This document shows positions 48,995 to 53,408 of a stretch of 53,408 nucleotides of DNA, piece after piece (the stretch's first letter is position 1; every line of letters starts with the position of its first letter). Made by a program: the position numbers and the translations under genes. The stretch covers positions 1-53,408 of the forward strand of contig JAQUAG010000014.1 in NCBI GenBank assembly GCA_028687375.1, in the 5' to 3' direction. The notes beneath the pieces were generated by a model that saw only the letters and a list, made by a program, of their open reading frames with translations, did not search any database and was not told the origin of the DNA. The DNA is from Arcobacteraceae bacterium (GTDB lineage: Bacteria; Campylobacterota; Campylobacteria; Campylobacterales; Arcobacteraceae).

Positions 48995-49330
48995 TTATGT
49001 GAATATAAATTGGAAATGGTAGTTTCCTTTCAAAGTATTATTTTTTTGAAATTTTTTTATTGGTTTCCAAATACCTTCAGTATTTGCACAGTTCATTTTT
49101 TGGATTCCACCTGTAGTTTTAATACCAAGGGGGGTGACAATTTGTCCCCACCCTTTTGATAGTTCTACATCTCTTTTTTTCATTTTTTTTATGTAATCGA
49201 TTGGATTAACTGTATCAGTCAATATTTCCACAACATCTACGACACTAAACCACCATTCATCATTGTGCAATGTTTTTCTTATCTCTTTCCCTTTAAAGAT
49301 AGAGAGTTTTTGCTCACTATTTTGCAACAT
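48995..49330 (-). pseudogene. Truncated BRO-N / antirepressor-like gene
   Basis: A 111-residue frame. Residues 8-85 are a BRO-N type domain (EWWFSVVDVVEILTDTVNPI, TTGGIQKMNCANTEGI), as in phage antirepressors and DinD-like proteins. Right after EGI the usual continuation (F-R-I-I-Q-S-like) is replaced by WKPIKKFQKNNTLKGNYHFQ, and the frame ends. The C-terminal half of the family is missing, which suggests a deletion. It sits next to dinD and McrBC, and is probably a remnant of a mobile region. Confidence 0.7.
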
Positions 49331-49364
49331 AATCCACTCCTACTATTTTATTTTAAGTATCTTA

Positions 49365-50231
49365 TCATCTTTTAGAAATCTTCTTCTTTTTAGGTAAAGC
49401 ACTTTGTTTTATCATCTTTTTTTCATCTGATTTTACTTTTCTCTCCAACTTTTTCAAATCCTCTGCTGGTGGCAATTCTTCTGGTTTGATACCTCGTTCA
49501 GTTAAAAGTCCCCTTACGCTTTCATTATTTTGGATGTGTTCATTTGTTATATTGTTTTCACCGTAAAGATTTTTTTGTTTTACATTGTGGTTTGTAATTT
49601 CTGTTGCTAGATTTTTGGCAGTAATTGTAATAGTTGGCAAAAAATCAGCCAATGGACGGCTAATTGGTACACCTAATTTATCTTTCATATTTTGTGTAGT
49701 ATTTCCACCAAAAAGTGCTGTGTCTCCTTTTGACCTTATTCGACCAAATCCACTATCATCTATTCCTCTTTCATAGATATTTTTTGAAAGTTCTGTTTCT
49801 GATTCTCTTAGTTTTGCCCTTGCTTGAAGCCTATCCTCTAGCTCCAATCTTTGCTCAATTAATTCTTGTTTTCGTGTTTGTATTGCAAAATAGGTTTGAG
49901 CAAAAGCAATTTGCTCTTTTTTACTATCACCATTTTGAGCGATAAGATAACAAGCATATCTTGTAAGTATAATATCTTCTATTTCTCGCATAGCTTCAGA
50001 GCCTATTTGTACCATTTTTCCCACTTGGCGAAAATGGTCGCTTACTTCTACACCACTGTTTTCGCAAGCTATTTTTGCTTTTGTGATAACATTTTGAAAT
50101 TTATCCCAACTGTTATAACCCAATACTTTTTGCAAATCTCTAGCATACCAGTATTCTATCAAGCTATCTTCAAGTGTGTTGGATAGTTGATTGAACTCAT
50201 TTTGAAGTGTTGTTATCGATTCTTTGTCCAT
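49365..50231 (-). CDS. dinD: DNA-damage-inducible protein D
   Basis: A 288-residue DinD homologue. The N-terminus (LIEYWYARDLQKVLGYNSWD) matches the BRO-N-like domain of DinD, and the centre (RYACYLIAQNGDSKKEQIAF, FAQTYFAIQTRKQELIE) is the conserved DinD helix region. E. coli DinD (SOS-induced) is reported to inhibit RecA activity. A second ATG at 50246 adds five residues, but GGAG lies 9 nt before 50231, so that start is preferred. The last 40 residues are Lys-rich. No LexA box was evident. It neighbours McrBC. Confidence 0.9.
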   Translation of the reverse strand: MDKESITTLQNEFNQLSNTLEDSLIEYWYARDLQKVLGYNSWDKFQNVITKAKIACENSGVEVSDHFRQVGKMVQIGSEAMREIEDIILTRYACYLIAQNGDSKKEQIAFAQTYFAIQTRKQELIEQRLELEDRLQARAKLRESETELSKNIYERGIDDSGFGRIRSKGDTALFGGNTTQNMKDKLGVPISRPLADFLPTITITAKNLATEITNHNVKQKNLYGENNITNEHIQNNESVRGLLTERGIKPEELPPAEDLKKLERKVKSDEKKMIKQSALPKKKKISKR

Positions 50232-50311
50232 TTTGTATCGCTCCATTTTTTCATTTTTGTTATCCTATCATCTTTTGGAAATTTTCTTTAAAAATATTAC
50301 AATTTGACAGA

Positions 50312-51559
50312 TTATATTGTTTTATTTAAAAAATTATCATCCTGAAATTTTGAATTTAAAATATCAAAAAATTGTACTTCTAGCTGTAAATCTTTTTTTA
50401 TGTTAGTACTCGTATCGTCCTTAAAATAGTTATATATACTAGTAGTCATCATCCTATCATATGGGTACACTAAATACATTTTTTTGCATTTTCCATATTT
50501 TGTACCATAGGCATAAAGTTGATACATATCACTTTGCGAAATCCCTTGATTACTTTTATCTACACTTAAAATCTTCCATTTAGTATCTATTATAATTTCT
50601 CCACCATCTATCACAATATCAGGTTTGAGGGAAAACTTTCCACTTCCATTTTCATAGGCTAAATGGTGTTTTTTATCTTGATTTTTAATACTCGTAAAAT
50701 CTCCATTTTTTCTTAGATAGTCATATACATAGCTTTCAAAAAGTAAATTCATATCAAATAAAAGTGCAAAGGCAATCGTATCTCCTTTATAAGGTGAAAA
50801 AGAGTTTTCAAGCAAAAATGTTTTGCACCATAAAAGGACTTGTTCATAATCTCTCATTTGGCGGTTAAGGCTCACTTTTTCAAAATCGCTTTTAATAGTG
50901 TGTGAAACTTCTATCTCATCAAAAACAAACAAAAATTCTCTTATTCGTTGTTGGTTTTTATTTGATTTGGATTTTTTGTAAAGATATTGCAAAGTAATTT
51001 TAATAAGCCTATTTTCTATCCTATCGCTACTAAATTCTTGGAACTGCACAAAAAATCGCTCTTTATGGATACTGTTTTGTTTGATTTGCTCTGAGATTTT
51101 GAGTTTGCCTTTTAGGAATTTTAGATTTTCTTCTTTTGAAATATAATCACTTTTTATCCCTTTTTGGATGAGTTTTGATAGCTCTTCTAAAAACATAGAG
51201 ATAAAAATCTCCAAAAGTGGCAATTTTGAAGCTTTCAAATTAGCAGTATTAAAATGCTTAAATGGAGAATTTTTAAGAGTTTTTAACATCTTGATTAAAA
51301 TCTCTTTTGATTTTTCTTCATCTACATTTTGGATTTTTGGCAAAATTTCAATAGTTGTTCCATCTTTTGTTTGGATAACTCCTACATAGTTTTGAGCTTG
51401 CAGTACTTTGCCAAATCCTTTTTTTGTAGTGATTTTGAGATATTGCATCGTTTCATTTTCAAGTATAAATTTCTCTAAAGTTTCAAAAGTATCTGGTTTA
51501 ATATAGTTTTTATCCTCTTCAATTTTACATTGAAGAAACTCAAACTCTTTTAAAATCAT
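50312..51559 (-). CDS. mcrC: McrC-family restriction endonuclease subunit
   Basis: A 415-residue nuclease subunit of the modification-dependent McrBC system. The PD-(D/E)xK core is visible: KPDIVIDGGEIIIDTKWKIL, with Asp314, Asp325 and Lys327. The N-terminal region (about residues 1-170) is the McrB-contact part. Its ATG overlaps the last base of mcrB, so the two are made together. The complex cuts DNA that carries modified bases; which modification is read depends on McrB's N-terminal domain. Confidence 0.92.
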   Translation of the reverse strand: MILKEFEFLQCKIEEDKNYIKPDTFETLEKFILENETMQYLKITTKKGFGKVLQAQNYVGVIQTKDGTTIEILPKIQNVDEEKSKEILIKMLKTLKNSPFKHFNTANLKASKLPLLEIFISMFLEELSKLIQKGIKSDYISKEENLKFLKGKLKISEQIKQNSIHKERFFVQFQEFSSDRIENRLIKITLQYLYKKSKSNKNQQRIREFLFVFDEIEVSHTIKSDFEKVSLNRQMRDYEQVLLWCKTFLLENSFSPYKGDTIAFALLFDMNLLFESYVYDYLRKNGDFTSIKNQDKKHHLAYENGSGKFSLKPDIVIDGGEIIIDTKWKILSVDKSNQGISQSDMYQLYAYGTKYGKCKKMYLVYPYDRMMTTSIYNYFKDDTSTNIKKDLQLEVQFFDILNSKFQDDNFLNKTI

Positions 51560-53274
51560 TATCTAAAACTACTAAAATCAAATTTGTTTTTTATTGTGTA
51601 AATAGATTTTTCCTCTTCTAAATAATCATCCACTTGATATTCAAAAATATCATCTTGGATAATCTCTTTTTGGATAAATCCATCTCCTATAACCATCAAA
51701 ATCTTTTCCCAATCATCGTAAAAATATTCAGATAAGAGTGGGATAATTTTGTTTTTAAAGATATTTTCTAGTTCATCTAAAGTTGGATTATCTTTCAAGC
51801 TCATAAAATAAGCATGACCAATAGTATGGTCTCTATCATAGAGATACTCTACTCTTTTGTTTATCTTTTCAAGCATAAGTTTAATATTTATATTTTCAAC
51901 TTCAAAATCAAGAAGCTCTGGCTTTGGCAACATCTCTACAAACTCAAATCTTCTACGAAGTGCTGTATCCATCAATGCGATACTTCTATCAGCTGTATTC
52001 ATAGTGCCTATAATGTAAAGGTTTTGTGGCACTCCAAAATCATCATTTGAATATGGCAACTTCACTTTTATCTCTTCATCAGCCCCTATCCTTTTTGATG
52101 GCTCAATAAGTGTGATAAGCTCTCCAAAGATTTTTGAGATATTTCCTCTGTTAATTTCATCAATAATTAGAATATAGTTTTGAGATGGTTTTTCATCATT
52201 AGTAGTAAATAAATTATTTTCATCAATTACTTCTTTCCAATCAATTAAACCATTGGACATTCTACCAAGTATCACAGATGATGCAGCACTTAAACTTTGA
52301 AAAGTAAAATCGTCTTCTAAAATATAAAATTCACTTTCTTCTTTTAGTTTTGCTTCACTTAAAACAGTTTTTTTTAAATCACTATAATTATAATTTTTAA
52401 ATGACTCGGCTTCACCTTTTCGTATTTTTGAACCTTTCAAAACTTTATATGTATTTTCATCTTCTTGTATAAGTTCAGCTTGAATATTTAAAGATTTTGC
52501 ATTTAAAACGAATCTTTTTTTGTAATTAATTGTTTTTTTCACTTTTGTAATAAAGTTCTTAAATGCATTATCTGATATTTTTTTAAATAAACCATCAACA
52601 ACATCATAAATCATTTCAGTCCCATTTTCATTGCCATCTTTACCAGCTGGAATTGCTTTTATCCCCTCAACAAATTCTTCATATCCATAACTTTGATGAA
52701 ATGTTACAAACTCAATTTGCCCAGCTTTTTTGTACTCTTCAAATTTTGCTTTGAGTTCTTCTCTGTTTTCATCATCCAAAACTTTTCTATTTTCTATAAT
52801 CTCAATAGCTTTATTGATAGTATTGTAAGTTTTCCCAGTCCCTGGAGGTCCATATAGAATTTGGTTGAGTGATTGGTTCAGATTATTATTTTTGGGCATA
52901 CTTTCCTCTTTTAAAACTGATAATATATATTCATAAAGTTCTACATTATTGTTAAGTATATAATTAACTGTCGCAGGTTTTAATCCATGTTTTAATAAAT
53001 TATCATAACTTAAAAGTTTGGCTATATTTTCATCAAACTTTTCTATAAGTTCTAAATCAATGGTATTTTCATTTATTTTAACTACCCTCATCAAATATTC
53101 AATTCTAAAGACAGTTTTTGATATATATATTAAAACAAATTGCCCTATTTCAACATTTATACTTTTATTCCACTTTTTATAACCTTTTTCCAGTTCAATA
53201 ATCGGTCGAACATCACCCCAATCTCCCTTAGGGTTATGAGTTAAAACAACAATTTTCTCATTTAATAAATTCAT
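51559..53274 (-). CDS. mcrB: McrB-family AAA+ subunit with EVE-like N-terminus and DUF4357-like insert
   Basis: A 571-residue NTP-driven motor of a type IV restriction system. Residues 1-115 look like an EVE/PUA-type domain (IELEKGYKKWNKSINVEIGQ, FVLIYISKTVFRIEYLMRVV) instead of the DUF3578 domain of E. coli McrB. Walker A is GPPGTGKT (142-149) and Walker B is LIIDEINRG (Asp372-Glu373); the McrB signature MNTADRSIALMD follows. About 230 residues separate Walker A and B, far more than usual. The extra part (about 250-348; KVLKGSKIRKGEAESFKNYN, SAASSVILGRMSNGLIDW) matches DUF4357. GAGGAAA precedes the ATG. The 134 nt upstream to the window end show no other gene. Confidence 0.88.
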   Translation of the reverse strand: MNLLNEKIVVLTHNPKGDWGDVRPIIELEKGYKKWNKSINVEIGQFVLIYISKTVFRIEYLMRVVKINENTIDLELIEKFDENIAKLLSYDNLLKHGLKPATVNYILNNNVELYEYILSVLKEESMPKNNNLNQSLNQILYGPPGTGKTYNTINKAIEIIENRKVLDDENREELKAKFEEYKKAGQIEFVTFHQSYGYEEFVEGIKAIPAGKDGNENGTEMIYDVVDGLFKKISDNAFKNFITKVKKTINYKKRFVLNAKSLNIQAELIQEDENTYKVLKGSKIRKGEAESFKNYNYSDLKKTVLSEAKLKEESEFYILEDDFTFQSLSAASSVILGRMSNGLIDWKEVIDENNLFTTNDEKPSQNYILIIDEINRGNISKIFGELITLIEPSKRIGADEEIKVKLPYSNDDFGVPQNLYIIGTMNTADRSIALMDTALRRRFEFVEMLPKPELLDFEVENINIKLMLEKINKRVEYLYDRDHTIGHAYFMSLKDNPTLDELENIFKNKIIPLLSEYFYDDWEKILMVIGDGFIQKEIIQDDIFEYQVDDYLEEEKSIYTIKNKFDFSSFR

Positions 53275-53408
53275 ATAAATTTCCTCATATAATACATTAC
53301 ACCAAATTTTTACACTACAAAATAGGTAAAAATTAAATTTAGTAGTAAACTAAAGTGTTATTACTAGGTTATCGGCATTACAGTCTAATCAAATGAAATG
53401 ACTAACAA

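Follow-up and report, generated by a model that had tools for sequence, protein, structure and literature searches.

We suggest that the McrB protein encoded by this Arcobacteraceae genome probably carries two DNA-recognition modules per subunit, an N-terminal EVE-type domain and a DUF4357 module set inside the AAA+ motor, which are exchanged independently of each other in a type IV-like McrBC system and would each have a role in specificity. More tentatively, and with slightly less than even confidence, we propose that McrB motors of this lineage have an internal cassette slot, at the helix 2/Walker B junction, that acts as a second position for target recognition. Its cassettes, of which the DUF4357 module would be one, would pass between lineages by recombination without regard to the N-terminal reader, which would make a combinatorial motor with twelve recognition domains per ring. 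The features of the locus within the window (the whole stretch of DNA analysed, 53,408 nucleotides) are collected in Table 1.

The mcrC start overlaps the final base of mcrB, and the PD...DTKW residues of a PD-(D/E)xK nuclease can be read off the McrC sequence. In McrB the MNxxDRS motif, as defined previously (PMC7680126), is accompanied by ALRRRF, likewise conserved among the 63 homologues, and the McrB of Thermococcus gammatolerans (TgMcrB) was matched at E 1e-61 in a PDB sequence search. Judged by its motifs the motor looks complete, and the combination of McrB-type AAA+ motor motifs with an adjacent McrC carrying nuclease residues identifies the locus as a putative type IV-like (modification-dependent) McrBC system, presumably active in restriction. 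Membership of the CoCoNuT branch of McrB proteins was considered and rejected, as the NxD signature, the criterion given in main-text passages of PMC11090510, is absent and NTAD (NxxD) is found in its place.

Table 1. Features of the mcrBC locus, with positions in the window and the evidence for each
Feature	Position	Strand	Evidence
mcrB gene, 571 aa	51559..53274	-	ORF; Pfam AAA_5, AAA, DUF4357; PDB McrB chains E 1e-61
N-terminal EVE-fold domain, aa 1-122, putative modified-base reader	52909..53274	-	AlphaFold, structure matches and profile link
Walker A GPPGTGKT, aa 142-149	52828..52851	-	motif scan; positions 142, 144-149 invariant in 63 homologues
IYDVVDGLFK, aa 222-231, putative beta-hairpin segment of helix 2, immediately before the slot	52582..52611	-	conserved DGIFK motif
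Inserted module, aa 240-362, between helix 2 and Walker B strand	52189..52557	-	L114/L116 pair; GIY-YIG C-terminus profile matches
DUF4357 (PF14267), aa 302-348	52231..52371	-	42.3 bits, curated cut-off 38.4, E 7e-11
Walker B ILIIDEINR, aa 368-376	52147..52173	-	motif scan; D372, E373, N375, R376 invariant in 63 homologues
MNTADRS, aa 425-431, McrB MNxxDRS signature, NxxD branch	51982..52002	-	M425, N426, D429-S431 invariant
mcrC gene, 415 aa	50312..51559	-	PF10117 McrBC, 350 bits

A first-pass annotation, made from the sequence alone, had placed Walker A at residues 142-149 and Walker B at 372-373, about 230 residues apart, with a DUF4357-like domain inside the AAA+ core. Both motifs lie where it put them (the spacing is 226 by motif starts) and the domain is confirmed by a PF14267 match above the curated cut-off; the extra stretch, which it had drawn at about 250-348, is present but starts slightly earlier, with the insert spanning ~240-362 and the homologous module ~240-349. 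In a genome-wide search DUF4357 scored 46.2 bits and occurred as a single copy in the Arcobacteraceae genome and in none of 14 control genomes. With a profile built from the insert, residues ~240-349 proved homologous, nearly end to end, to the module at the C-terminus of GIY-YIG nuclease-type proteins. The PADLOC PDC-S14 models also link the insert to the C-termini of GIY-YIG proteins, tblastn against plasmids returned matches over insert residues 1-110, mostly in annotated GIY-YIG nucleases, and one Campylobacterota relative carries a GIY-YIG domain (20.7 bits, slightly below cut-off) followed by DUF4357. The presence of a homologous module at the end of GIY-YIG nuclease proteins implies that the DUF4357 module may have a DNA-directed role.

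An AlphaFold model of the insert from six sequences reached a pLDDT of only 45.5 and gave no usable fold, and when the DUF4357 module was compared by sequence with the PDB, no solved relative came up. The weak inositol phosphatase matches from that search were taken as chance, and a single-sequence match to I-TevI (E 0.23) was gone once a profile was used. Phage records held no match to the insert, and viral contigs no relative of either the insert or the N-terminus. In some GIY-YIG relatives the Pfam RAMA profile (PF18755) overlaps the DUF4357 match (best E 6e-5, at most 23.4 bits against a cut-off of 35.2). The McrB insert itself was not matched by PF18755, alignment of the DUF4357 module with RAMA domains of local methylase-type proteins (hhalign) was not significant, and a search of the genome itself for RAMA with E up to 10 found none; a kinship of the module with RAMA is therefore kept as a lead only.

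The N-terminal 122 residues gave no direct match in a Pfam search, EVE (PF01878) included, and their profile found nothing useful among PDB sequences. An AlphaFold model from four sequences (pLDDT 85.5, pTM 0.80) was compared with known structures, and the top five VIA-align rows were all EVE-type, with Z scores of 9.7-10.3 over 106-112 aligned residues (1zce, Z 10.3; THYN1 with 5mC DNA, 5j3e, 10.0; 2gbs, 9.9; 2eve, 9.7). ASCH structures followed at 9.4 and below and YTH structures at 8.5 and below; Foldseek alone placed ASCH proteins at the top, then 2gbs and 1zce. The modelled fold assigns the N-terminus firmly to the EVE/ASCH/YTH group, and the firm call stops there because the margins between subfamilies are about 1 Z unit; within the group it is most likely EVE. 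Further to that, among distant McrB N-termini one (L013) matched Pfam EVE above cut-off at 23.7 bits and two (L015, L118) below it, and a seven-sequence profile of the N-terminal family reached these last two at E ~1e-5 in a small local set. The resemblance of the N-terminus to EVE/PUA readers, proposed earlier from sequence, is thus borne out by the model, with EVE structures as its best matches. The profile search of residues 1-115 suggested at the same time came out divided, no Pfam profile matching the protein directly and distant relatives matching Pfam EVE. The domain would, by its kind, read a modified base.

Where the DUF4357 module sits becomes clear from McrB homologues, whose Walker A to Walker B distance is either ~75-151 residues or 180-285, with 24 of 90 rows below 140. 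The usual insertion site follows the end of helix 2, past the conserved DGIFK hairpin, and precedes the strand bearing Walker B, and the close pair L114 (filled, with a different insert) and L116 (empty) gives the slot clean edges. In the sampled homologues, which were gathered by similarity to the Arcobacteraceae McrB so that frequencies are biased to its own lineage, the slot is usually filled, mostly not by DUF4357. Automatic clustering joined 36 of the other inserts by single linkage, a grouping that is probably too coarse for family counts, and several of the homologue loci are short metagenome contigs.

Further observations concern individual homologues. In L061, L062, L066, L068, L069, L070, L081 and L090 there is a second insertion site, between Walker A and TFHQSY, with its own insert family. 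In L072, L073, L075, L077, L082, L089 and L091, from several Bacillota and other phyla, the usual slot is filled by a module of 174-194 residues (FFKMSLG...IALGWG...GDIVVISHGN) that resembles EVE/PUA domains on visual inspection; L075, the member put to a Pfam search, had no match. L031 is a Campylobacterota-like McrB on a contig filed under Anaeromyxobacter, probably a misbinned metagenome contig.

Exchange of the modules was followed by dividing each protein into four parts (N-terminus, P-loop part, insert, C-part) and comparing close relatives by identity. The Arcobacteraceae McrB and L036 are 50, 71, 21 and 69% identical in these four parts, with N-terminus and motor related and the insert not; L002 and L039 are 31, 78, 25 and 94% identical, and the Arcobacteraceae McrB and L038 are 25, 65, 20 and 84% identical. 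Across these pairs motor identity is 65-94% over inserts that are unrelated (20-25%). With L032 the values are 23, 80, 59 and 90%, the insert class being the same and the N-terminus unrelated. The same N-terminal domain also occurs in McrBs that carry unlike inserts or lack one altogether. In a tree built from the motor sequence only, where some inner branches are weak, the nine DUF4357 proteins require six changes; branches with strong support force at least three of these, and a single clade of DUF4357 McrBs is rejected (AU p 0.005).

Synonymous divergence agrees with this picture. The inserts of L018 and L036 are 91% identical, with a dS of 0.20, whereas the motor on either side has 0.99 and 1.20, and these sequences indicate that the slot module was transferred recently and by itself. 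The Arcobacteraceae McrB and L005 show the same tendency (insert dS 0.79 against 1.2 and 2.2); the dS figures are rough, many other values being saturated. Co-adaptation of the insert with McrC was rejected, as the McrC proteins of L002 and L039 are 92% identical although their inserts are unrelated. We conclude from these comparisons that exchange of the N-terminal domain is independent of exchange of the slot module, while motor and McrC are kept. In the L002 mcrB homologue the N-terminal part is interrupted by an in-frame stop, and that copy may be inactive.

Specificity positions would be expected to show this pattern, exchange at two sites while motor and nuclease stay constant, and swapping both domains looks like a way to change which foreign DNA is attacked. 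The slot module might also only add affinity, because RAMA structures show contacts to the DNA backbone, none of them base-specific, and no clear base specificity or 6mA dependence (PMC9963953). As a general element for DNA affinity, processivity or ring assembly it would leave the EVE domain alone to pick targets, a reading that we hold to be unlikely, though insert-free McrBs exist and look complete. Unrelated inserts substitute for one another in near-identical motors, which would be needless for a generic element, and DUF4357-class inserts diverge faster than the motor: their dN/dS is ~0.16-0.39 in unsaturated pairs, against 0.06-0.19 in the C-terminal part of the motor. These ratios place the DUF4357 insert under purifying constraint, though less than that on the C-terminal motor part.

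The rapid swapping of a surface-type module would also fit an arms race in which the slot module senses or evades phage-encoded McrBC inhibitors, or recruits a host protein, and is replaced as inhibitors change. We regard this as improbable: DUF4357 is otherwise found in DNA-acting proteins, at GIY-YIG nuclease C-termini and in GmrSD homologues, which points to a nucleic acid partner. It is very improbable that the insert is a normal McrB subdomain, as the first-pass annotation had itself allowed, or a passive, functionless remnant of gene fusion, since a middle segment of variable length in McrBs is all that speaks for it, whereas the spacing is not the McrB default and similar motors lack the insert (excluding the subdomain), the insert holds a separate known domain scoring above cut-off, and it shows purifying selection and residues invariant across genera.

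The preferred reading, that of two DNA-recognition modules per subunit, can be laid out on the known McrBC machine, in which McrB forms a hexameric GTPase ring, McrC enters the pore and stimulates hydrolysis, and a hairpin lies within helix 2 (PMC7680126, PMC6624300). The hexamer ring would bind McrC and power its cleavage of DNA, and the EVE domain would inspect a modified base that it has flipped out. The DUF4357 module being plugged in directly after helix 2 and before the Walker B strand, one ring would display six domains of each kind, EVE and DUF4357. The module in the slot would most likely contact DNA and add to target choice, through a second base, sequence or modification. Type I HsdS subunits exchange their target-recognition domains, and in this lineage the N-terminal domain and slot module of McrB would be replaced independently by recombination in much the same manner, with motor and McrC retained. 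As to the earlier proposal of two reader modules in one McrB, the identities of both modules held up; reading of modified bases may reasonably be supposed, least so for DUF4357.

The architecture is not new in kind. Among the EVE architectures of defence systems, EVE-McrB is the most frequent (Bell et al. 2020, PMC7641849), and in main-text passages of Bell et al. 2024 McrB GTPase domains are said frequently to carry inserts "likely encoding specificity domains", with DUF4357 listed among McrB-fused domains and used as a marker of McrB genes (PMC11090510). DUF4357 was noted in GmrSD homologues and with GIY-YIG proteins in 2015 (PMC4619093). The "new specificity design" claimed by the first-pass annotation was therefore overstated, both the common EVE-McrB (PMC7641849) and, in those same passages, GTPase-domain inserts and DUF4357 fusion (PMC11090510) having been described. 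What is added here is evidence for an exchangeable slot: the main-text passages of PMC11090510, supplementary files aside, describe no DUF4357 position, slot or lineage exchange, and the precise arrangement, slot position and exchange evidence were not found in the published main-text passages, supplementary tables aside.

The Arcobacteraceae protein resembles EVE-McrB/McrC (PMC7641849) in having an EVE-type N-terminus on an McrB GTPase and an McrC partner, extra domains often being present there, but its N-terminal family escapes the Pfam EVE profile and its DUF4357 lies inside the motor. With the insert-bearing McrBs of the PMC11090510 passages it shares a GTPase-domain insert predicted to be a specificity domain, DUF4357 being among those listed. 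The McrBC of Thermococcus gammatolerans, which acts on m6A DNA, has the same motor layout and an N-terminal reader of the EVE/YTH superfamily, but that reader is YTH, whereas the best structural match in the Arcobacteraceae McrB is EVE; in phmmer TgMcrB aligns to the motor on either side of the insert and not to the insert. GIY-YIG proteins with C-terminal DUF4357 (PADLOC PDC-S14) share a module homologous over ~100 residues, but there it is terminal and nuclease-attached, not inside an AAA+ motor. The RAMA domain (PF18755) overlaps DUF4357 only in the GIY-YIG relatives.

Should the slot prove to be a second position for specificity, McrBC would be combinatorial in the way of type I restriction subunits, and surveys that type McrB by its N-terminal domain alone would miss half of the target determinants. 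The natural swaps, in which the same reader occurs with a different slot module or a near-same motor with a different slot module, make this idea directly testable, and offer a route to what DUF4357, common to GIY-YIG nucleases and GmrSD homologues, recognises.

The contig ends only 134 bases upstream of mcrB (53275..53408), and any upstream genes or regulators fall outside it. Directly downstream of mcrC, on the same strand (48995..50246), lies a DinD-like gene that scores 366 bits with NCBIfam PRK11525, along with a short Bro-N protein, and each of the two matches the PADLOC candidate PDC-S13; together with mcrBC these neighbours may form a small defence cluster.
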